Below, piece after piece: positions 1,425-13,159 of a DNA stretch of 17,827 nt; within the stretch, counting starts at the first letter, position 1; every line of letters starts with the position of its first letter. The translations under genes were made by a program, and so were the position numbers. The notes beneath the pieces were generated by a model, which was given only the letters and a program-made list of their open reading frames with translations, was not told the origin of the DNA and ran no database searches. This DNA comes from Ignavibacteria bacterium (GTDB lineage Bacteria; Bacteroidota; Ignavibacteria; Ignavibacteriales; Melioribacteraceae), in the NCBI GenBank assembly GCA_027347545.1, contig DAIEQT010000028.1, positions 1 to 17,827 of the forward strand, in the 5' to 3' direction.

Positions 1425-1832
1425 CTAAACAATTCCTTGTGACTTTAGAAAAGGCACATATGCTTTATCGTTGCCCATTATGTGCCCTGTAAGCCAATCT
1501 TTAAGAAAATTCATTACATCAAGCGTTAGTACGGATTTACCGCTGCCGAAATCCGATCTCAACTTAACTACTTGCTGAACTAATGCTTCGTGCTCTTTTA
1601 GATGAGAATCGGTTTGCGGATATTTATACTTACGAAAAAGATCTTCTTCAGTTTTAAAGTGATAGACCGTGTAATTTGTAAGTTCATTTAAAATTCCCGA
1701 CAAAGCATCTTTACCCTTACCCTCTTTCATTTTGTCGTGTAATGTGTTAACCAGTTCTACAAGTTTCATATGCTGGTTATCAATTTGGGTAATGTTTACC
1801 GAGAGTGAGGAATTCCATTGAATTAGCGCCAT
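1425..1832 (-). CDS. Bacteriohemerythrin (oxygen-binding diiron protein)
   Basis: This is a single-domain hemerythrin of 135 residues, a typical length. All seven diiron ligands are visible: His21, His58, Glu62, His77, His81, His117 and Asp122, in the motifs DNQH, HFKTEE, HLKEH and HIMGND. Family members bind O2 reversibly at a non-heme diiron site and serve as oxygen carriers, scavengers or sensors in microaerophiles and anaerobes. There is no signal peptide, so it is cytosolic. The ATG has a clear GGGAG ribosome site six bases upstream. It lies 53 bp downstream of the histidine kinase gene on the same strand, so it may be the last gene of that signalling operon or have its own promoter. A bidirectional terminator follows it. 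The identification is very secure; its physiological role is inferred from the family. Confidence 0.95.
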   Translation of the reverse strand: MALIQWNSSLSVNITQIDNQHMKLVELVNTLHDKMKEGKGKDALSGILNELTNYTVYHFKTEEDLFRKYKYPQTDSHLKEHEALVQQVVKLRSDFGSGKSVLTLDVMNFLKDWLTGHIMGNDKAYVPFLKSQGIV

Positions 1833-1885
1833 GTGTTTCTCCCTTATTGTGAAATTGTGATAATGTAGTAAGTTAGTTGATTTAT

Positions 1886-4024
1886 TTAATCGAATAATTT
1901 ATTAAGTAACAGATTAATTTTATTTGAAGAATCAGTAGGAATCCAAATAGTAAATATTGAGCCGATTTGGGGTGCGCTTTGCACAGTTATATTTCCATTC
2001 ATAAGATGAATTATTTTTTGAGCAATTGTTAAACCAAGCCCAAAACCTTCATAGTTTCTAGTATATCCTTCCGATGCTTGTCTAAAAGCTTCAAAAATTA
2101 ACGATTGGTCCTCTGGAGCAATTCCAATACCGGTATCTTCTACACTTATTAATGCATATTCAATGTTATTCTCGAATGAGTAGCCGGCATTAATTTTTAT
2201 TCCTCCGGCGGTAGTAAATTTTATTGCGTTATCGAGCAAATTATTAATTATTAGGGAAAGATATTTTTCTTCTGAAGTAATTATTATTTCGCTTTCGGCA
2301 GAATCGAATTCAAGGGTTAACGATTTCTGCTTAGCCTCTTTGCTATACAAAGCTATGCTACTTCGGATTAAAGAAATGGCATCAATCTTTTTCATTACAA
2401 ATTTAAGATTGGAAGATTCCAGGTGTGAAAGCAGCAGTATGTTTTCAAGAGAATTCAATAATCGTTTCCCACCGCTTTGCACAGCGTGAATCATTTCTAC
2501 TTGCTCTTTTTCGGTCAACTCAAATTCTAATAACTCACTAAACCCAAGAATCAAAATTAGAGGGGTTCTAAACTCGTGACTCATATTGGCAAGCAAAGCT
2601 GATTTTGCTTTTTCAGCTTTCTCAACCTTAGCTTTTGCCTGGAATAATTGTTCCTCGGCTAGCTTCCGTTCAGTGATGTCTTCTTGCACCGCAAGGTAAT
2701 TTATAATCTTTCCCGAAGAATTCTTTATTGGAGATATGTGAGCATAAATCCAAATCAACTCGCCATTTTTTTTCTTCATCATGTGTTCCCCCGTCCATTG
2801 CTCGCCGCTTCCAATGGCATTATACGATGCCTTATAGTTTTCACCGTCTAAACCTTTGGCTTTAAAAATTATCGGTGTTTTTCCAAGTAATTCTGGAAGC
2901 GAATATCCCGTTTTAGTGCAAATAGCATCGTTAGCATATTCTATTCTTGCATCCGTATCTGTTATTGTGATAAGAGAATTAGTTTGCTGGATTGCCAGTA
3001 ATAGCTTCAGGTTTTCTTGCTCTGCTTTCTCCCTTTCCACAATTTGCTTTTGTAGCTCGGAATTAATTTTGGCTAATTCTTTTGTTCTCTCTTCTACGCG
3101 GTGCTCTAGTTCAAAACGGGACTGCTGGATTTTGTCTTCCATCATCTTCCTCTCGGAAATATCGAGGAAGCTGATAATTTGATATTCGTATTTATCTATC
3201 AATATGTCGGATGTAGCATAAACTATCGGAACAGCGTTTCCTTCGGCAGTTATTAGCAGAGCTTCTTCTTTTGTAATAATCTCATCCTTAAAAACATTGT
3301 TGTCGAAAAATAAAAAGAAATCATCTCTTTCTTTGCCAATCAAATTTTCTTTTGGAGTGCAAAGAAGATTTACTGCCGTTTGGTTCGCATCTTGAATCAA
3401 CTTGGAAGATTTATCAATTAGAAAAATTCCTTCATGAATTGAATCTATAATTTTGTGTAAATCTTCTGCACCTTGTTTCAGATTGTTTATTTGTTCAATC
3501 AGCTCGGTTTTCCCTTTACTTTCTTTTGAAGAATTTTTATTACCAACGGACAATTGAAAGTATCTCAAAGCGAAAATTGAAGTAAGAGCCGAAAGAACCA
3601 ATTGGATTTCTTCACTAAGTATGATTTTTTTATCTATGATTAGAAGCAGAAAAGAGAAAACCATTTCATTGGATTTCATCGGAATTAAATGCGCTTCTTC
3701 GTAAAAGCTAATTTGTTTTCGTGTACTTTTGCCTAATTTCAAAGTCTCGGATAAAAATCCGGTTTCTATCAAATCGCCAAATACTTTTCTTGCCTCTACT
3801 GAAGAAAGAGACGAATAGGTGCCGGTTAATACAAACTCAAATGTTGATTGATTTAGTAAGAAAAACGACGATACTCTGCAGTTAGTAAGTTTGCAGCATT
3901 CGGCATTCAACTGTGAAATTAAATCAGTCACATTCATTGAAACCGTGGGGACTGGTTGCAAGAATCTTAAAACTGAATTTAGACTGCCATATTTTTCTTT
4001 GTAATTTTCAGACATATCAATCAC
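1886..4024 (-). CDS. Cytosolic sensor histidine kinase with GAF-like, PAS, PAS, HisKA and HATPase domains
   Basis: The 712-residue product has no membrane segments. Residues 1-158 look like a GAF-type sensory domain. Residues about 187-290 are a first PAS ending in DISERK. A coiled coil covers about 295-342. A second PAS with PAC ends in EDITERK near 452, and a short linker helix leads to the kinase core. The H-box has phospho-acceptor His483 (NMSHEFRTPL), the N-box is at 593-604 (INNLLDNAIKFT), G1 is DTGIGI at 630-635 and G2 is GFGLGL at 660-665, all intact. It has no receiver domain and no response regulator lies in the window, so its partner is elsewhere. The listed start is GTG, overlapping the HDOD gene stop by four bases (GTGA). 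ATG at 4015, three codons in, is an alternative. Tight coupling to the HDOD gene suggests one signalling unit. The signal sensed is unknown. Confidence 0.93.
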   Translation of the reverse strand: MIDMSENYKEKYGSLNSVLRFLQPVPTVSMNVTDLISQLNAECCKLTNCRVSSFFLLNQSTFEFVLTGTYSSLSSVEARKVFGDLIETGFLSETLKLGKSTRKQISFYEEAHLIPMKSNEMVFSFLLLIIDKKIILSEEIQLVLSALTSIFALRYFQLSVGNKNSSKESKGKTELIEQINNLKQGAEDLHKIIDSIHEGIFLIDKSSKLIQDANQTAVNLLCTPKENLIGKERDDFFLFFDNNVFKDEIITKEEALLITAEGNAVPIVYATSDILIDKYEYQIISFLDISERKMMEDKIQQSRFELEHRVEERTKELAKINSELQKQIVEREKAEQENLKLLLAIQQTNSLITITDTDARIEYANDAICTKTGYSLPELLGKTPIIFKAKGLDGENYKASYNAIGSGEQWTGEHMMKKKNGELIWIYAHISPIKNSSGKIINYLAVQEDITERKLAEEQLFQAKAKVEKAEKAKSALLANMSHEFRTPLILILGFSELLEFELTEKEQVEMIHAVQSGGKRLLNSLENILLLSHLESSNLKFVMKKIDAISLIRSSIALYSKEAKQKSLTLEFDSAESEIIITSEEKYLSLIINNLLDNAIKFTTAGGIKINAGYSFENNIEYALISVEDTGIGIAPEDQSLIFEAFRQASEGYTRNYEGFGLGLTIAQKIIHLMNGNITVQSAPQIGSIFTIWIPTDSSNKINLLLNKLFD

Positions 4025-4866
4025 ATAAGCATCATTTTAATTGTATGAGAATAATCATCTATAAATTTGTCTTTTAGAGAAAGTATTGTGCCGCGTCTAA
4101 GTTTTAAAACGCCCCAGATGATCGGATTTGGCTGAGGAATTAGGTTGTCTCCAGAAAAACCGAAACCAAGTATGTGTGCAACAATATTTCCGAGATGGAC
4201 CGAGGCGAGCAATGTATTTGTTTCTTTAGTTTTTTGCCCCATGTGATGATTATAAATTATGTCTTGAATATACTGGGGAATTCTCCACTTATCAGCCAAG
4301 ATTTGACCGGCAGTTGCATGATCGATTCCGAAAACTTCTTTCTCAGCGTCTTTAATCTGGCATTTTTTTTCAATAACAAGTTCCATAACCTTTTGATATT
4401 CTTTCACGGCGAATTCAAGAAAAATAATTTTTCCTATGTCATGAAAAACTCCGGCTAGAAAGTAGTTTTCAACATTTTTTTCGCCGATAGCTAAACCAAT
4501 ATTTCTTGTAATTACACCAACTCCAATCGAGTGTGCCCAAAGATCAACCGGGCGCAAACCACGAACATTTTTATCTTTAGAAAACATCTTCATTATTGAT
4601 AAAGAGAAGACAATATTTTTTACTTCGTTGTGCCCCAAATATATCAGCGCTTGCGAAATCGAATCTATTTTTCCGTGTAATCCGTAAAGTGGCGAGTTTG
4701 CGACCTTCAAAACCTTAAATGCAGAAGTTTGATCTGCGGAAATGATCTTTGCGATTTTCTCGTTGGTTGCCAGAGGATCTTCTATAGCCTGTGAGAGCTG
4801 AGAATAAATTGTTGGCAGCGTAGGTAAATTATTTACAGATGATCTGATCTTTTCGCTGAAGTCCAT
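4021..4866 (-). CDS. HDOD-domain signalling protein
   Basis: The 281-residue product consists almost wholly of an HDOD domain, a relative of the HD phosphohydrolase fold used in bacterial signal transduction. The N-terminal signature LPTLPTIYSQL and the PLYGL segment near residue 60 are typical. Many HDOD proteins have lost the metal site, but here several HD-type residues persist: His112, His142-Asp143 with Gly145-Lys146 (FHDIGK), His183 and His207-His208. The usual late Asp of HD enzymes seems to be Asn227, in VHLGN. Enzymatic activity is therefore uncertain. It starts 12 bp after the 112-residue gene and its stop overlaps the histidine kinase start, which indicates one operon. Family members often act as adaptors linking sensor kinases or chemotaxis to downstream regulation. 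The family call is strong; the function is inferred. Confidence 0.92.
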   Translation of the reverse strand: MDFSEKIRSSVNNLPTLPTIYSQLSQAIEDPLATNEKIAKIISADQTSAFKVLKVANSPLYGLHGKIDSISQALIYLGHNEVKNIVFSLSIMKMFSKDKNVRGLRPVDLWAHSIGVGVITRNIGLAIGEKNVENYFLAGVFHDIGKIIFLEFAVKEYQKVMELVIEKKCQIKDAEKEVFGIDHATAGQILADKWRIPQYIQDIIYNHHMGQKTKETNTLLASVHLGNIVAHILGFGFSGDNLIPQPNPIIWGVLKLRRGTILSLKDKFIDDYSHTIKMMLM

Positions 4867-4878
4867 TTGAACCGACTG

Positions 4879-5217
4879 CTATTTTTGTTTTGAAATTGTT
4901 TGCACAGCTAAATTGAAAAGATCCATTTCTTGGTCATTCATCGGTGTCCAATTCATTCTCTTTTTAAGGATGGTCATCGTTTCAAAATCCAGCGCCGAAG
5001 TTAAATCAGCAGGAACTTCCGGCTCATCCGAATTAATAACAACTGCCTCTATTCCCCACGTTTTAAAAAGGCTAATGTGGCTTTCCGTTAACATTGTTCC
5101 AGCGGAAAGCAGCATTTGCCCATATAAATTTTTTACAGACTCAGCCAGTTCCATGCCCGCATAAATGTCTGCAGTATAGATTATTCTTGTAGCCATCTTA
5201 TTCCAGATAAAGTCCAT
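4879..5217 (-). CDS. Small protein resembling an N-terminal module of HD-type signalling proteins
   Basis: The product is 112 residues, soluble, without signal peptide or membrane segment. The segment around residues 33-61 (LLSAGTMLTESHISLF followed by WGIEAVVI) follows a pattern I associate with the short region preceding HD-GYP or HDOD domains. This comes from memory and was not searched. The C-terminal third is helical and charged. It is the first gene of the cluster with HDOD and the histidine kinase, so it may be a partner of the HDOD protein encoded as a separate chain. The ATG at 5217 is favoured because AGAGG lies eight bases upstream. A second ATG seven codons later has no such site. 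Its molecular function is not known. Confidence 0.75.
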   Translation of the reverse strand: MDFIWNKMATRIIYTADIYAGMELAESVKNLYGQMLLSAGTMLTESHISLFKTWGIEAVVINSDEPEVPADLTSALDFETMTILKKRMNWTPMNDQEMDLFNLAVQTISKQK

Positions 5218-6784: not shown

Positions 6785-7608
6785 TAACAAACGCTAAGTA
6801 TACAGAAGAAAATATAGTTCTCGAAAACGGTACTGTGCTAATTCAGAAAGTTACTAATCCAACTTTAAACATTTTTTTGCCGGAAAAAGAAAAAGCAAAT
6901 GGAAGTGCTATTGTAATTTGCCCGGGCGGTGGGTATAAAGTTCTAGCGATTGATCATGAGGGAATTCAGATAGCAAAGTGGTTTAACAAACTTGGTTTTG
7001 CTGCTTTCGTACTTAAGTACAGATTGCCAAATGATTCAATAATGGTGAATAAAAGCATTGGACCTCTTCAAGACGCACAAGAAGCAATACGTTTTATTAG
7101 AAGAGACTGCGCACAATGGAATATCAACCCAACTAAGGTTGGCATTATTGGTTTTTCTGCCGGAGCTCATCTAGCTTCAACTGCTTCTACTCATTTTGCA
7201 GAAAAAGTTTATAATTCTGATAGTACAAGTGCACGTCCGGATTTTTCATTGCTGATTTATCCGGTAATTTCAATGAAGAATGAAATCACCCACATTGGTT
7301 CTAAAAGAAATCTCTTAGGAGAGAATCCTTCACAAGAATTAATTTTTCATTTTTCTAACGAAGAGCAAGTCGGCAAGTTTTCGCCACCAACTTTCCTTGT
7401 TCATTCACAGAATGATAATACTGTTCCTATACAGAATAGTATAAATTATTTTTTAGCACTAACAAAAAGTAATATTCCGGGTGAACTCCACATTTTTGAA
7501 AAAGGTGGACATGGTTACGGAATGGGTAGAGAAAATGGAACCGAATTACAATGGACGGAAATGTGTAAACGTTGGCTAATTCAGCGCGGAATGATGTTAG
7601 CTGATTAG
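6760..7608 (+). CDS. Secreted-type alpha/beta hydrolase (esterase/lipase-like), catalytic body
   Basis: The body has an intact alpha/beta-hydrolase core. PGGGY at residues 55-59 forms the oxyanion region, IDHEG is near 64-68, the nucleophile Ser133 lies in GFSAGAHLAS, Asp219 in HSQNDNTVP, and His251 in GGHGYGM. This pattern matches the secreted carbohydrate-esterase or acetylxylan-esterase-like group common in polysaccharide-degrading Bacteroidota. The substrate cannot be read from sequence. The TTG at 6760 is only where this frame can nominally start: it has no convincing ribosome site, and the real N-terminus with signal peptide is upstream in another frame (6674). It follows the aminotransferase closely on the same strand and overlaps the convergent aroE 3' end by 12 bp. 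Without its signal peptide the protein would be mislocalised if translated at all. Confidence 0.85.
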   Translation: MGWKNSRLITNAKYTEENIVLENGTVLIQKVTNPTLNIFLPEKEKANGSAIVICPGGGYKVLAIDHEGIQIAKWFNKLGFAAFVLKYRLPNDSIMVNKSIGPLQDAQEAIRFIRRDCAQWNINPTKVGIIGFSAGAHLASTASTHFAEKVYNSDSTSARPDFSLLIYPVISMKNEITHIGSKRNLLGENPSQELIFHFSNEEQVGKFSPPTFLVHSQNDNTVPIQNSINYFLALTKSNIPGELHIFEKGGHGYGMGRENGTELQWTEMCKRWLIQRGMMLAD

Positions 7609-8475
7609 GTAAGACTCGATCGCTTTATAAACTTTATCTATTGGCATTTTTTGTCCGGTCCATAACTCATAAGACTTTGCGCCTTGCTCAACGAACATTT
7701 TTAATCCGGTTACAATAGTTGCGCCTTGAGATTCTGCAAGACGAAGCAATTTTGTTTTCACCGGATTGTAAACAACGTCGAAAACAATTTGTCCTTTCAT
7801 AAACGATTCTTTAATTGTTGTAGCAGAATCATCAACGTTAGGATGCATTCCCATAGAAGTTGTGTTAACAATCAGCTTCGAATCACGGAAAGTTTCTACA
7901 AGATCGGGTGGTGCGAGCGGCATAGATTTCATTTCGGTGAAGAGCATTTTTGCAGAGAAATACTCTTTAAGAGATTCCCCAATTTGATCTGTCCGGTTAA
8001 TTATTGTTATATGCCCAACCTTGAATGTTCTAATGAGGGCATAAATTACACCGCGTGCTGCACCACCAGCGCCTATAACCGCAACTTTAGCGCCGGCAAT
8101 TTCATCTTTGTAAGGAAGCAAAGACTCTATCACACCATGAACATCTGTGTTGTAACCGCGAAGAGTTCCTTCATCATTTACGATTGTATTTACAGCACCA
8201 ATAATGCTTGCTTCTTCTGAAACATCTTTTAACAATGGCAAAACTTTCTCTTTTAAGGGAACAGTAACATTAAAGCCTTTTATTCCGAGTGCATTCATGC
8301 CCTTTAATGCATCTTTCAATGCAGCTGGCGGTACATCAAACGGAAGATATAAATAGTTCAATCCGGAAAGTTCGAATGAAATGTTGTGCATCAACGGAGA
8401 AAATGATTGTTTAATTGGATGACCAATAACGCCGATGATCTTAGTGTTCTGATTAAATTTATTTTGTACCTGCAT
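7597..8475 (-). CDS. aroE: Shikimate dehydrogenase (NADP+)
   Basis: AroE reduces 3-dehydroshikimate to shikimate with NADPH in aromatic amino acid and chorismate synthesis. The 292-residue product has every family landmark: GHPIKQSFSP at 18-27 with substrate-binding Ser24 and Ser26, NVTVPLK with catalytic Lys75, GAVNTIV with Asn96, GYNTD with catalytic Asp111, the Rossmann loop GAGGAA at 135-140, NRT at 160-162 (NADP selectivity), NTTSMGM near 204-210 and EQGA with Gln264. ATG at 8475 is chosen. A TTG at 8481, directly after the TAA of the TPR gene, is an alternative. Neither has a strong ribosome site, so translation may be coupled to the upstream TPR frame, which carries nonsense codons. 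The 3' end overlaps the convergent hydrolase by 12 bp. Confidence 0.96.
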   Translation of the reverse strand: MQVQNKFNQNTKIIGVIGHPIKQSFSPLMHNISFELSGLNYLYLPFDVPPAALKDALKGMNALGIKGFNVTVPLKEKVLPLLKDVSEEASIIGAVNTIVNDEGTLRGYNTDVHGVIESLLPYKDEIAGAKVAVIGAGGAARGVIYALIRTFKVGHITIINRTDQIGESLKEYFSAKMLFTEMKSMPLAPPDLVETFRDSKLIVNTTSMGMHPNVDDSATTIKESFMKGQIVFDVVYNPVKTKLLRLAESQGATIVTGLKMFVEQGAKSYELWTGQKMPIDKVYKAIESYLIS

Positions 8476-8481
8476 TAACAA

Positions 8482-9906
8482 TTAGGATTTATTCTCGTCT
8501 ATAAGTTTAATAAAAAGTTTTGAAGTCTTTACTTCCGGATATTCATGAGTAAATTTATTACGGGTATTCGGATCGAGGGTGAATGCTTTTTTCAAACACT
8601 CGATTGCTTCTTGAGTATGGCTTAGTATAAAATTAATCTTAGCTTTTCCATAATAAGGATTCGCATCCTCAGATTTCAAAATAATACATTTATCGAAAGC
8701 TTCAATTGCTTCTAACCACTGTCCAACCTCTACATACGTTTCGGCAAGTTTGAACCAAGCCTCAAAATTATTTTCGTTCAGTTCTATAGTTTTTTTGTAA
8801 CTCTCTATCGACTCTTGCAATTGCCCAATTGAATATTCTAATTCAGCTTTAGCAATCCAAGCATCCTCGGGATTTGTTGTCAGCGTTATTGAAGTATTAA
8901 AATCTTTTAGCGCTAATTGGTATTTGCCAATCATATCATAGCAGAACCCTCGCGCAAGAAAAGCTTCGTAGTAGCCCGGATCAAGTTTAACAGCTTCTGT
9001 ATAGTTGCGTATAGCTTGATTGTATTTGTGTCCCTCTTCGTAAATCTGACCCATATTGTAAAGAACTGTTTCATCTGTAGGATCCAACTCGTAAGCCTTT
9101 TTATATGCTGTTAACGCATCCCCAGTTCTATTCACTTGAGAATATGCGTAACCAACATTGAACCAAGCGCTGGAAAAATCATCGCGAAGAGCAATTTAAA
9201 GCTCAAAACAATTTATTGACTGCTGATATTTTTCAGCACGTACCAGCACAATCCCCTTATTATACCAAGCTGTAAAACTGTTCGGGTCCAGTTCCAAATA
9301 CTTGTCATATGTTTGCAATGCTTCTTCTAATCTGTCCGAGTTCTCATAACAAAAACCAATTTCGTACAATGCTTCCATATATTCATGGTCAATTTCCAAT
9401 GCTTTGTTAAAATATTGAATCGCGTCATCGAACATTTCTTTCTTTTCATACAAAACGCCTAAGCTAAAAAGAATTTCTTCGTTCGAAGGTTCAATACTAA
9501 AAGCAGTTTGCAGAGATTGCAATGCTTCTTCAAACATTCCAAGATTATCTTCGGCGATTTATTTGTTAATGTAGGTTTCTACATCGTTAGGATTAAGTGA
9601 AAGTGCTTTCTCAAAACAATGATATGCATCTTCGAAAACAAAAGAATTGTTTAGCAGAATACCTTTAAAATGCCACGCCTCTGAATTATAAGGAGCTATG
9701 TTTAAGACTTCATTTACCAACAGCAAACCATCGTCAACATAATCATAATCAACGCACATCTCGATTGTTTCTTCTAAGAAATCCAAAGAGGAAATTGTTG
9801 TACCGTTTTGTATATGTTCTTTACAAATATTGATCTTTTCTTTTAGTTCCGCCTCATCATACACCGATTCTCCGTCATTATTCAGAAAATCCTCAGAAAA
9901 ACTCAT
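8482..9906 (-). pseudogene. Tetratricopeptide-repeat protein gene interrupted by two in-frame TAA codons
   Basis: A single reading frame of 475 codons runs from ATG 9906 to the TAA at 8482, broken by TAA at 9559-9561 (codon 116) and 9196-9198 (codon 237). TPR units of about 34 residues continue in register across both breaks. The first stop sits exactly at TPR position 8 (YINK, stop, IAEDNLGMFEEAL). The second sits at about position 27 (NCFEL, stop, IALRDDF). There is no indel anywhere in the frame. The start is well supported by GGAG at 9912-9915, five bases upstream. The intact protein would be a soluble, helical TPR scaffold with an acidic N-terminus and no signal peptide. The last codon abuts aroE. 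The gene is either recently inactivated, split into three pieces, read through, or misassembled. No enzymatic domain is present. Confidence 0.82.
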
Positions 9907-9995
9907 CAATACTCCATATTAATTTTGTGGGAAAATGTATAGCTAACAAAAGTGAAAATCAAGTTGGATTTGAAAAGAGAAATATCTATGACACT

Positions 9996-11204
9996 TTAAT
10001 TGGACAACGTCATCATCTCTTTATTAGAAACTCTCTTAACTCCATGCGTGATTTTTAAGATGTGGAATTTTAGCTCTTTGCCGAAACGATCTTTATAAAG
10101 CCGCCCGATTTTCTTAACGAAATTATCTGTTAAATTTTCTTCGACAATATTAAATACACTTTTTATAGGTGAGCAACTTATCATTTTTGAACCGACTACT
10201 CCGGGCAACTTCACGGCCTCAGCTACTATAAAATCTGAATTGTCGTTGCTGATTTCATAATCTTTGGAAAGACCCCAATGCGATTCTGTAATAAGCACGC
10301 CAAAATCCTCCATCATTCCCTTTCTTAGAAATTTAACTGCGCTCTCGGCTCTCTTTCTTTCATTTACATTATAAAGCACTCTATTAAAAATTCTGTGCGG
10401 CAGCATATGATAGTGTCTTAGAAGAAAGTCTGATTCCACATCGCGTAAATTTTTTATTCCCCAGATATACAAACGTAATCCTTTTACGCCAACCTCACAC
10501 TCTTCAACTCGTTCGTTGCATCTCTCTTGCGGATTAATAATTGCCTCTTTTGTATCACAAACAACAATATTTAACTCTCTATCAAAAAAATTAATATGCT
10601 GACTGGCTTTAGTACGTAGATCATAATTATAAATTTTTCCTTCTTTGCCACTCTGAGCTGTATGATGATGTGCTTGATTAGAAATTTTACCAATGACAGG
10701 AGCTTCATTTTTCTTAATGAGATCAAGCAAAAGCTCATCCTCAACATTGAGTGCATAATTTTTTTTGATGTTATTCACAAAAGCAACCTGCATTCCTGCT
10801 AACGAACCTAATCCTAAACATTCCGGAACATTTGACGAAATGACACAATCGAAACCGAGTTTTATTAGTTCTTGTTCATTTAGCAATTTGGTTAAATGTC
10901 TTAACAAATTAAACTCATTGCAATCTATTTGTTCCAGCGAATCGAAAGTTGTACTTAAAAATTTATCAGAATCAGCAGAAGCAAAGTTTACAACTCTATC
11001 TTTCCTTTTTCGAATAAGAACAGTCCATACTCTATTAACACATACCGAAAGCAGCACGCCTTCGTTATAATGAGTGTGATCTCCAAGTAAAATTAAACTC
11101 GCGGGAGAAACTGTAATTGAAACGTGATCGGAAGAGCCGTATGTGCTTTCAAATTTTCTTAGAGCTTTGTAAACCAGCTCGCTATCACCATTTAATCCGT
11201 TCAT
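9996..11204 (-). CDS. Galactokinase-fold (GHMP family) protein lacking catalytic motifs; probable pseudoenzyme
   Basis: The 402-residue product aligns in layout with galactokinase, but every signature is altered. The N-terminal PGRVNLIGEHTDYN block is here PASLILLGDHTHYN (34-47): the catalytic Arg position is Ser36, Glu is Asp42 and the sugar-binding Asp is His45. The phosphate loop PLGAGLSSSA is PECLGLGSLA (127-136). The GIMDQ region (about 172-186) has no Asp, so the catalytic base is missing. The third motif, GARMTGGGFGG in galactokinases, is GSKMISCSPIK (338-348) with its glycines gone. Length and fold-defining positions are retained, so this looks like a kept, non-catalytic paralog, comparable in principle to the yeast sensor Gal3p. 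The start has AGAGG seven bases upstream. It lies 86 bp upstream of the TPR gene, same strand. No galactose genes are adjacent, and the ligand is unknown. Confidence 0.85.
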   Translation of the reverse strand: MNGLNGDSELVYKALRKFESTYGSSDHVSITVSPASLILLGDHTHYNEGVLLSVCVNRVWTVLIRKRKDRVVNFASADSDKFLSTTFDSLEQIDCNEFNLLRHLTKLLNEQELIKLGFDCVISSNVPECLGLGSLAGMQVAFVNNIKKNYALNVEDELLLDLIKKNEAPVIGKISNQAHHHTAQSGKEGKIYNYDLRTKASQHINFFDRELNIVVCDTKEAIINPQERCNERVEECEVGVKGLRLYIWGIKNLRDVESDFLLRHYHMLPHRIFNRVLYNVNERKRAESAVKFLRKGMMEDFGVLITESHWGLSKDYEISNDNSDFIVAEAVKLPGVVGSKMISCSPIKSVFNIVEENLTDNFVKKIGRLYKDRFGKELKFHILKITHGVKRVSNKEMMTLSN

Positions 11205-11295
11205 AGCAAATCCTCTTCATCGAAAGAGTAAGGAATGTTTTTGTCTTATTAAAATTACGAAAATTGCCGCTAATCGAACATATACTTTTGAAAAA

Positions 11296-11667
11296 TTAGT
11301 TTTTTAAGAAGTTATTAGCTCTTGTTTCTTGGATAAGGAATTTTCTGATTGGCTCTATCAAGTTGCGGGACTGTTTTTCGTTGAAAAGAAGAAATTCTTC
11401 TTTATGTAAAACTCTACTCAATGCTCTTACAGTCGATGTAATTATAGAAACCAAATTCGTTTGCGAAGTAATTATTTCAACGGGAAGTAAAAAGATAGTA
11501 TCGAAAACGGAGGACTCTACAAGCTGCATTGCTTCACTAAACGATAAATCTTCTAAGTGCGATCTATATTTTATCATACCGGATTTTTGCCGTAATCTCA
11601 GTTCAAACTTCATTCTTTCCATTAGAAGCCGAAGTGCACTATCCGTTGTAATTTTTATTTCGATCAT
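11296..11667 (-). CDS. Hypothetical protein, 123 residues
   Basis: I do not recognise this protein. It is soluble, mostly helical by composition, and basic at the C-terminus, with no signal peptide or membrane segment. It starts MIEIKITTDSAL and contains a central hydrophobic patch (FDTIFLLPVEIITS). The minus-strand frame is preferred to the overlapping plus-strand frame at 11363-11686 because its composition is protein-like, whereas the other is rich in Ser and Cys and lacks a ribosome site. No clear ribosome site precedes the ATG at 11667 either. It lies 91 bp upstream of the galactokinase-like gene on the same strand and after sucC, so co-transcription with the former is possible. Confidence 0.6.
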   Translation of the reverse strand: MIEIKITTDSALRLLMERMKFELRLRQKSGMIKYRSHLEDLSFSEAMQLVESSVFDTIFLLPVEIITSQTNLVSIITSTVRALSRVLHKEEFLLFNEKQSRNLIEPIRKFLIQETRANNFLKN

Positions 11668-11751: not shown

Positions 11752-12969
11752 TTATGCAGTAGCTAAAACTGATGTGACCTTTTTTGCAGCATCTTGAAGT
11801 GACGTAGCGACTGAGAAATTTAAGCCAGAGCTTTCCAACATTTCTTTTGCTTCTATTGAGTTTGTTCCTTCAAGCCGAACAACAATGGGAACGGTAACAG
11901 ATACTTCATTTACCGCGTCAATAACACCTTGAGCAACACGGTCACAGCGAACAATTCCGCCAAAAATATTTATGAGCAATGCCTTAACATTTGGATCAGA
12001 AAGAATAATCTTGAAACCGTTAGCAACAGTTTCTTTATTAGCTCCGCCGCCAACATCTAAAAAGTTTGCTGGTTCACCGCCGGCAAGTTTAATAATATCC
12101 ATTGTAGCCATTGCAAGTCCAGCGCCATTAACCATACAGCCAACGTTTCCATCTAGCTTTATGTAATTAAGATTGAATTTGGAAGCTTCAATTTCGAGCG
12201 GAGCTTCTTCGTTCAAATCTCTGTAAGCTACAATTTCCGGATGACGGTAAAGCGCGTTATCATCAAAATTCATTTTAGCATCGAGAGCAAGAATTTTATC
12301 ATCATTGGAAATAACGAGAGGATTGATTTCGAGCATCGAAGCATCAGTTTCCTCGTAAGCTTTGTAGAGTTTCATAATGAAGTTGGTAAAACTCTTGAAT
12401 GCAGCGCCTTCTAAGCCTAATCCAAACGCAATTTTTCTTGCTTGAAACGATTGAATTCCGGTAGAAGGTTCAATCCATTCCTTAATAATTTTTTCCGGGG
12501 TTTCTTCAGCAACTTTTTCAATTTCAACGCCACCTTCAGTTGAAGCCATTATTACATTTTTAGAAACCGCGCGGTCCAATAAAATTCCGAGATAGAGTTC
12601 TTTTTTGTAATCAAGTCCCTCGGTGATAAAAAGGGTTTGAACAATTTTTCCTTCAGCTCCGGTTTGATGTGTAACTAACAAGTTTCCAAGCATCTTGGTA
12701 GCATAATCGCGAGCTTTTTCTGTATCGGTTGTAAATTTTACGCCGCCTTCAAGAATTAATTCTTCTCTGTTGGAAGGATTGTAGAGCTTTCCTTTCCCTC
12801 TTCCGCCGGCATGAATTTGAGATTTAACAACATATTGATTGATTCCGCGCGCTTGCAGTTCGCCAATAGCAGAATCGAATTGAGAAAGATCTTTGATTGC
12901 GATTCCATCTTGAACCGGAACGCCATACTTTTTTAAAACTTCTTTTGCTTGATATTCATGGATTTTCAT
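11752..12969 (-). CDS. sucC: Succinyl-CoA synthetase (ADP/GDP-forming) beta subunit
   Basis: This subunit carries the ATP-grasp domain of the TCA-cycle enzyme that interconverts succinyl-CoA and succinate with nucleotide phosphorylation. The 405-residue product starts MKIHEYQAKEVLKKYG, the conserved family N-terminus, which fixes ATG 12969 as the start. The longer open frame to TTG 13053 adds unrelated residues. The ATP-grasp loop KSQIHAGGRGKG covers 49-60, LEINPLVIS and DAKMNFDDNALYRHPEI follow, and the C-terminal CoA-ligase domain has NFLDVGGGA and NIFGGIVRCD. Residue 20 is Gln, as I recall for GTP-preferring enzymes, where the E. coli ATP enzyme has Pro. This is suggestive only. No alpha subunit gene (sucD) is adjacent. 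GCGGA lies six bases before the ATG, and a stronger unused GAGGAG lies at 13070-13075. Confidence 0.96.
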   Translation of the reverse strand: MKIHEYQAKEVLKKYGVPVQDGIAIKDLSQFDSAIGELQARGINQYVVKSQIHAGGRGKGKLYNPSNREELILEGGVKFTTDTEKARDYATKMLGNLLVTHQTGAEGKIVQTLFITEGLDYKKELYLGILLDRAVSKNVIMASTEGGVEIEKVAEETPEKIIKEWIEPSTGIQSFQARKIAFGLGLEGAAFKSFTNFIMKLYKAYEETDASMLEINPLVISNDDKILALDAKMNFDDNALYRHPEIVAYRDLNEEAPLEIEASKFNLNYIKLDGNVGCMVNGAGLAMATMDIIKLAGGEPANFLDVGGGANKETVANGFKIILSDPNVKALLINIFGGIVRCDRVAQGVIDAVNEVSVTVPIVVRLEGTNSIEAKEMLESSGLNFSVATSLQDAAKKVTSVLATA

Positions 12970-12988
12970 GATTGATCCGCTTGTAATA

Positions 12989-13028
12989 GGTGAAAAATGA
13001 TTAATTACCGTTTGAACGGGTGAAAAAT
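12989..13028. promoter_or_regulatory. Direct repeats and a palindrome upstream of sucC
   Basis: GGTGAAAAAT occurs at 12989-12998 and again at 13019-13028, exactly 30 bp apart (about three helical turns). Between them is the palindrome CCGTT-TG-AACGG at 13008-13019. The block begins 20 bp upstream of the sucC start codon, within the 190-bp divergent space shared with the small membrane protein gene. The arrangement fits a cooperative regulator-binding site. No regulator is identifiable here. Confidence 0.4.
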
Positions 13029-13159
13029 TACGGGATTCGCTTCTGAGAATCAATTTGGCAAAAATTTATCTCCTCGGTCAAAAATTTGAAGATTATTGAA
13101 CCTTTGTGAATAAATTAGCTGTTATAACATTAATTAAATCTTGCTGCAAAGGAATAGCT

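Follow-up and report, generated by a model that had tools for sequence, protein, structure and literature searches.

A galactokinase homologue with a predicted GHMP/galactokinase fold is encoded by a 402-amino-acid (aa) open reading frame (ORF) at positions 9996-11204, minus strand, of a 17,827-nucleotide (nt) stretch of DNA from an Ignavibacteria bacterium of the family Melioribacteraceae (contig DAIEQT010000028.1, assembly GCA_027347545.1; hereafter the window). By its sequence, this protein (P0001) belongs to a group in which the catalytic and sugar-contacting residues are replaced by a near-invariant new set. The group is under purifying selection, forms one clade in one taxonomic family and has its gene placed before a TPR gene and aroE. 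The reading we favour, at a probability of roughly one half, is that the gene is a lineage-specific pseudokinase derived from galactokinase, and that its product would bind a ligand without phosphorylating it and would likely signal to a partner. The protein is probably a sensor, an adaptor or a new enzyme. It appears not to phosphorylate sugars, and the canonical requirement for ATP seems to have been lost.

Residue replacements and selection

The frame starts with the ATG at 11204 and runs through 402 codons plus a stop. A ribosome-binding-like aagagga (11211-11217, minus strand) lies 6 nt before the start, and the frame tried on the plus strand of 9996-11204 holds 27 stops. Besides the ORF itself, the assignment is based on profile matches, an alignment and a fold comparison. 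Pfam gives the galactose-binding signature (E 3.5e-8) and GHMP_N (E 1.9e-5), and the best galactokinase model of NCBIfam, PRK05322, covers most of the length (E 3e-49). The scores fall below the NCBIfam equivalog cut-offs, at 167.7 bits against 385 for this model and 124.9 bits against 226.65 for TIGR00131. The alignment to L. lactis GalK (PDB 1pie) is gapless through each motif. A preliminary description, made from the letters of the window and naming no strand, had claimed an intact frame with a good ribosome site and a length and motif spacing like those of galactokinase, and both claims are borne out.

A homologue search returned 249 proteins at E <= 0.001. The best 120 of the 249 (43-95% identity) and the query make up 121 database rows, which were used for residue counts and site entropy; alignment A1 holds 118 of them, as P0013, P0068 and P0094 were left out as short. 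The database rows were joined with loci from related genomes in a 143-row alignment, which includes near-copies (e.g. L003 and P0002). L001, a copy of P0001, was dropped from it, L018 and L020 are cut late at the N terminus by the start rule, and P0013 and P0094 are N-terminally incomplete.

In motif 1 (residues 34-49, PASLILLGDHTHYNEG; 11058-11105, minus strand; canonical PGRxNLIGEHTDYNxG), the catalytic Arg is replaced by Ser36 in 129 of 140 family rows and the sugar-binding Asp by His45 in 140 of 142. Glu is replaced by Asp42 (142/142), a conservative exchange of a sugar contact, and the sugar-contacting His43 is retained (142/142). Motif 3 (residues 172-181; 10662-10691, minus strand) reads GKISNQAHHH for GVxCGIMDQ[YF], with His179 for the catalytic Asp in 132 of 143 rows and Asn176 for Gly in 142. 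Motif 4 (residues 339-348; 10161-10190, minus strand) reads SKMISCSPIK for SRMMGGGFGG; Lys340 for Arg and Cys344 for the Gly/Ala of the glycine loop are each found in all 143 rows. Just as invariant is Cys229 (143/143), which stands for the sugar-binding Tyr and aligns with position 236 of the human chain. The galactose contacts of human galactokinase, which we take to be Glu43, His44, Asp46 and Tyr236, thus have Asp42, His43, His45 and Cys229 as family equivalents, and the chain index of the alignment likewise gives 236 for the Tyr. The canonical signatures PS00106 and PS00627, in the patterns that we take to be theirs, occur in 24/24 canonical rows and in 0/143 family rows. Relatives with as little as about 34% identity show the same set, so it is not due to chance.

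The features named in the preliminary description are all present (Ser36, His45, no Asp in 172-186, GLGSLA at 131-136, SCSPIK at 343-348 and HHH at 179-181). Its statement that the catalytic Arg, the catalytic Asp, the sugar-binding Asp and the glycine loop are replaced extends, with Ser36, His179, His45 and Cys344, across the family rows. It had overlooked two of the invariant exchanges, those to Cys229 and Cys344. Its claim that all three GHMP motifs are erased holds for the catalytic motif and the glycine loop but not wholly for the phosphate loop (residues 128-138, ECLGLGSLAGM; 10791-10823, minus strand), where G131 is kept in 143/143 rows and G133 in 142/143. These two are the only (nearly) fixed residues there, and Ser134 varies, the six commonest residues among the 143 being S82 K22 A14 R5 G4 V3. 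The form GxGSSA, which is also the phosphate-loop form of other GHMP kinases, is present in 17 of the 121 database rows. Nucleotide binding may therefore persist in some members.

Site entropy over the 121 rows indicates where constraint lies. The whole protein has 1.60 bits, and the lowest values are found for residues 241-255 (0.19), 271-285 (0.60), and 226-240 and 31-45 (0.75 each). Residues 229-285 (10350-10520, minus strand), which begin with Cys229, form the most conserved block of the family, with the pattern CNERxEECxxGVKGLRLYIWGIKNLRDV...HMLPxRIFNRVLYNVxER. The phosphate loop has 1.23 bits, and residues 97-103, which presumably match the canonical W-x-N-Y stretch on the adenine side, have 2.09; this stretch is lost and variable in the family. 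Eight pocket positions are more conserved than either, with a mean of 0.39 that includes position 221 at 2.51. Position 221 corresponds to 228 in the human chain, is occupied by Lys (54), Arg (28), Glu (26) and further residues in the 143 rows, and is variable in canonical relatives as well. By this pattern, constraint has loosened on the nucleotide side, and the substrate side is held fixed with new residues.

The gene is maintained under purifying selection, as had been supposed from its open frame. Compared with the nearest relative (G001, 95.5% identity), the nonsynonymous rate (dN) is 0.021 and the synonymous rate (dS) is 0.524, a ratio of 0.041; in the same pair, dN/dS is 0.007 for aroE and 0.027 for sucC. 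Among six other pairs, five were saturated at silent sites and one (L035-L036) gave 0.183 at a dS of 1.2.

Distribution, origin and gene order

Among 391 sampled genomes of the class, the gene was found in 34 of 48 genomes of the Melioribacteraceae, the genome of the window included, and in 0 of 343 others. The 48 genomes consist of 36 with a match, two of which have canonical GalK only, and 12 without. Matches to family members score 318-658 bits, and the next best, of canonical type, scores 254 bits. A scan with three peptides, taking one genome per species, found 38 relatives. Titles with Ignavibacteria, Ignavibacteriae, Ignavibacteriales, Melioribacteraceae, Melioribacter or Stygiobacter account for 32 of them, and the others are titled "Bacteroidetes bacterium" (4) or "bacterium" (2). 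Members without an exact copy of one of the three peptides escape such a scan, and 29 of the 67 stretches it returned were not relatives. The gene is found in records of the named species Stygiobacter electus and Rosettibacter firmus.

A tree of 50 sequences groups the 21 family members in a single clade (100/99), whose stem measures 1.32 changes per site. Family and canonical galactokinase genes can co-occur within one genome. In a tree of the TPR and AroE proteins (the window's own genes left out, 12 of 23 outgroup loci used), the taxonomic family comes out as a single clade (100/97). Five changes are needed to account for where the gene is present, at least three of them forced by well-supported branches. 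One gain followed by several losses would fit this tree. Ten loci of the taxonomic family that lack the gene held no remnant detectable by tblastn with five family proteins. In one genome (G006), a 1004-aa gene occupies the slot between the 123-aa gene described below and the TPR gene.

The gene order is strongly conserved. The TPR gene (8482-9909, minus strand) follows directly downstream, at 34-158 nt in 22/22 related genomes, and aroE, which encodes shikimate dehydrogenase (7597-8481, minus strand), is the third gene of the unit and follows the TPR gene at -4 to 24 nt in 21/22, the exception being a contig end; these distances rest on a mechanical start rule. The aroE gene is the sole aroE match in its own assembly, and 57 of 58 genomes have one match and the last none. 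Of 23 loci from the order's two other families, 20 have sucC directly before the TPR gene. The loci of the window's genus (6/6, the window included) have the genes arranged as sucC, the 123-aa gene, the pseudoenzyme gene, TPR and aroE; at the remaining 17 loci with the pseudoenzyme gene, no sucC was found in the stretch inspected. These neighbourhoods, with and without the gene, suggest that it was inserted into an older sucC-TPR-aroE string and then stayed with TPR-aroE.

Proposed function and alternatives

In the favoured scheme, the old sugar pocket (D42, H43, H45, N176, H179, C229, K340, C344) would bind a different small ligand or a metal. The bound or free state would be relayed by way of residues 229-285 (RLYIWGIKNLRDV), which are highly conserved, and the receiver would most likely be a protein, with the co-encoded TPR protein as the obvious candidate. 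Judging by the link to aroE, the process served would be aromatic or central carbon metabolism. Gene order is what suggests that the TPR protein and AroE are involved.

Several observations weigh against this scheme. Strict conservation of the pocket is equally expected of a new catalytic site. Some GHMP kinases work without an Asp base, so that loss of the Asp alone leaves kinase activity possible. The gene evolves faster than its neighbours, with a dN/dS for L035-L036 of 0.183 against 0.103 for TPR, 0.062 for aroE and 0.045 for sucC, and several lineages in the TPR and AroE tree have lost it. The TPR-aroE pair is present without the gene in 33/33 loci, so it does not need the gene; this set leaves out G014, in which no aroE was found, and also G051, and includes L107, which has only a piece of the TPR gene. 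The ratio of TPR to AroE rates is also not clearly higher where the gene is absent (1.55 +/- 0.18, n=9) than where it is present (1.46 +/- 0.14, n=21), so a relaxed evolution of TPR after gene loss is not seen. These two results speak against a strong dependence of TPR and AroE on the gene.

The most serious competitor, though still distinctly less likely, is that the old sugar pocket now serves as a new active site for a reaction other than canonical sugar phosphorylation, in which D42, H43, H45, C229, C344 and, in most members, H179 may form a metal or thiol site. Residues capable of binding metal or acting as thiols are (nearly) fixed, with C229 and C344 in 143/143 rows and D42 and H43 in 142/142, and the pocket is more conserved than the phosphate loop and residues 97-103. 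All of these positions except C344 presumably line galactose in known galactokinases. On the other hand, H179 is missing in 11/143 rows and H45 in 2/142 (both also without H179) while C229 and C344 are kept in all, so not all pocket residues can be obligate ligands. The preliminary description had proposed a metal site in the three-His run at 179-181. This is weak as stated because the run is mostly HHY: H179 is found in 132/143 rows and H180 in 111/143, but at position 181 Tyr (107/143) is far commoner than His (11/143), and the three-His site as such is rejected. D42, H43, H45, C229 and C344 together with H179 are a better-founded putative pocket set. It is possible, though distinctly less likely than not, that in this one bacterial family the substrate pocket was rebuilt to a fixed Asp/His/Cys/Lys site (D42, H43, H45, H179, C229, K340, C344) of a metal- or thiol-based new enzyme or a metabolite sensor, which was captured into sucC-TPR-aroE and uses the RLYIWGIKNLRDV segment as its output surface.

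Rather unlikely is an altered GHMP kinase that still depends on ATP but acts on a new substrate without the Asp/Arg pair. GHMP folds without an Asp base exist, e.g. homoserine kinase, and the retained G131 and G133, along with GxGSSA in 17 of the 121 rows, would suit such an enzyme. In contrast, Ser134 varies, the W-x-N-Y stretch is lost and variable, and the glycine loop is gone in 143/143 rows. The archaeal-type shikimate kinase is a GHMP protein, and replacement of a shikimate kinase next to aroE was considered. It is rejected, since AroK (PF01202) is present in 56/58 genomes, the window's own included, and there is generally no missing enzyme to replace; the carrier G010 (81% complete) shows none.

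A non-catalytic sensor in control of galactose genes, in line with the Gal3p analogy of the preliminary description, is improbable. The sugar contacts Glu, Asp and Tyr are replaced, and among the 22 carriers galT is matched in 9 and not in 13, and 11 have no GalK match of either type, with the canonical short GalK in 7 and the long type in 3. By the N-terminal signature 12 carriers lack GalK, but the galT contig of G027 also carries a C-terminal GalK piece of 115 aa, so that the count is 11. Neither galT nor GalK is present in 9 of the 19 carriers that are at least 90% complete; the incomplete genomes are G002 (77%), G010 (81%) and G027 (87%). Near the gene there is no match to galT or GalK; such matches lie on separate contigs or, in G013, at a distance of 1 Mb. 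On sugar use by cultured relatives, the available text of PMC3534657 (the Melioribacter roseus genome), with two mentions of galactose and none of galactokinase, and that of PMC13064019 were uninformative.

Motif loss and the lineages without the gene might suggest a decaying galK, which the preliminary description had named as the case to be expected if close homologues kept canonical motifs, but this is refuted by substitutions shared by 143 rows, a dN/dS of 0.041 and the lack of internal stops in the 23 family loci read, where flagged stops lie at match ends.

Comparison with known systems and other features

The family shares with GalK (PDB 1pie, 1wuu) its length, the fold over nearly the whole chain, the motif spacing, His43, the first phosphate-loop glycine and, in the segment that follows the sugar-binding Tyr, Cys236 and Arg232. 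It differs in that the catalytic Arg and Asp, the sugar-binding Glu, Asp and Tyr, the glycine loop and W-x-N-Y are replaced, and its gene is not near galT. To our knowledge, the GHMP pseudoenzymes described so far are eukaryotic (Gal3p and XOL-1). The Saccharomyces protein Gal3p is reported to be a galactokinase paralogue that has lost enzyme activity (PMC7556753). This transducer of the GAL regulon has the fold in common with the family protein. It was crystallised with galactose and ATP, according to the title of 3v2u, and acts on galactose genes, whereas in the family the sugar contacts are exchanged, galactose genes are often absent and the genetic setting is different. XOL-1 of C. elegans is a nematode protein with a GHMP fold and a regulatory role, for which no detected ATP binding and very little sequence homology to non-nematode genes are reported (PMC11349215). 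The comparison with XOL-1 is at the level of fold and regulatory role. An Asp/Arg mechanism is reported for the GHMP heptokinase WcbL (PMC4691232).

The family shows the general features of GHMP pseudoenzymes, namely a GHMP fold, lost catalytic residues and a conserved protein, and lacks the residue features that define a galactokinase; as far as can be told from sequence, it is a pseudoenzyme of the Gal3p/XOL-1 kind. No paper on galactokinase pseudoenzymes or GHMP pseudokinases was found among the open-licence papers searched. Because this bacterial family forms one clade and combines fixed new residues with a large number of sequences and a fixed neighbourhood, the transition from a kinase to another function can be tested directly, also in named species. 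Source records often name these genes galactokinase although the catalytic residues are absent, which is a warning against inferring galactose metabolism from them.

The same organisms have long-type galactokinases (L002 and L057-L059, about 430 aa), which are distant homologues in a separate clade. All four keep a GGGFAG loop and three keep GLMDQ. At the catalytic Asp, L057 (G001), L058 and L059 read GLMDQ, and L002, from the window's own genome (contig C70), reads GLMYQ. This difference may be a sequence error, as may the stops in the TPR gene; the assembly is 75% complete. The TPR gene has two in-frame TAA (9559-9561 and 9196-9198) where the nearest relative, with an intact 475-aa protein, has Ser. 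Its three pieces are 96-98% identical to that protein, with a dN/dS of 0.01-0.02, which points to stops that either arose very recently or are errors of assembly. The arrangement of a TPR gene immediately ahead of aroE is shared by three families of the order at the 33 loci that lack the pseudoenzyme gene, and it is also found alongside that gene.

Upstream of the pseudoenzyme gene, the 123-aa ORF (11296-11667, minus strand) has no Pfam match, is conserved in the genus, where it lies between sucC and the pseudoenzyme gene, and is 51% identical in G006. Next to it, sucC (ATP-grasp_2 + Ligase_CoA; 11752-13053, minus strand) is the ancestral upstream neighbour of the TPR gene. An anti-phage system was considered and rejected: PADLOC assigned no family to P0001 or to the one relative scanned with it. 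Further along the window, positions 1425-5217 (minus strand) hold a string of ORFs of 135, 712, 281 and 112 aa. By eye, the 712-aa ORF resembles a PAS-type histidine kinase, the 281-aa ORF an HDOD protein and the 135-aa ORF a bacteriohemerythrin.
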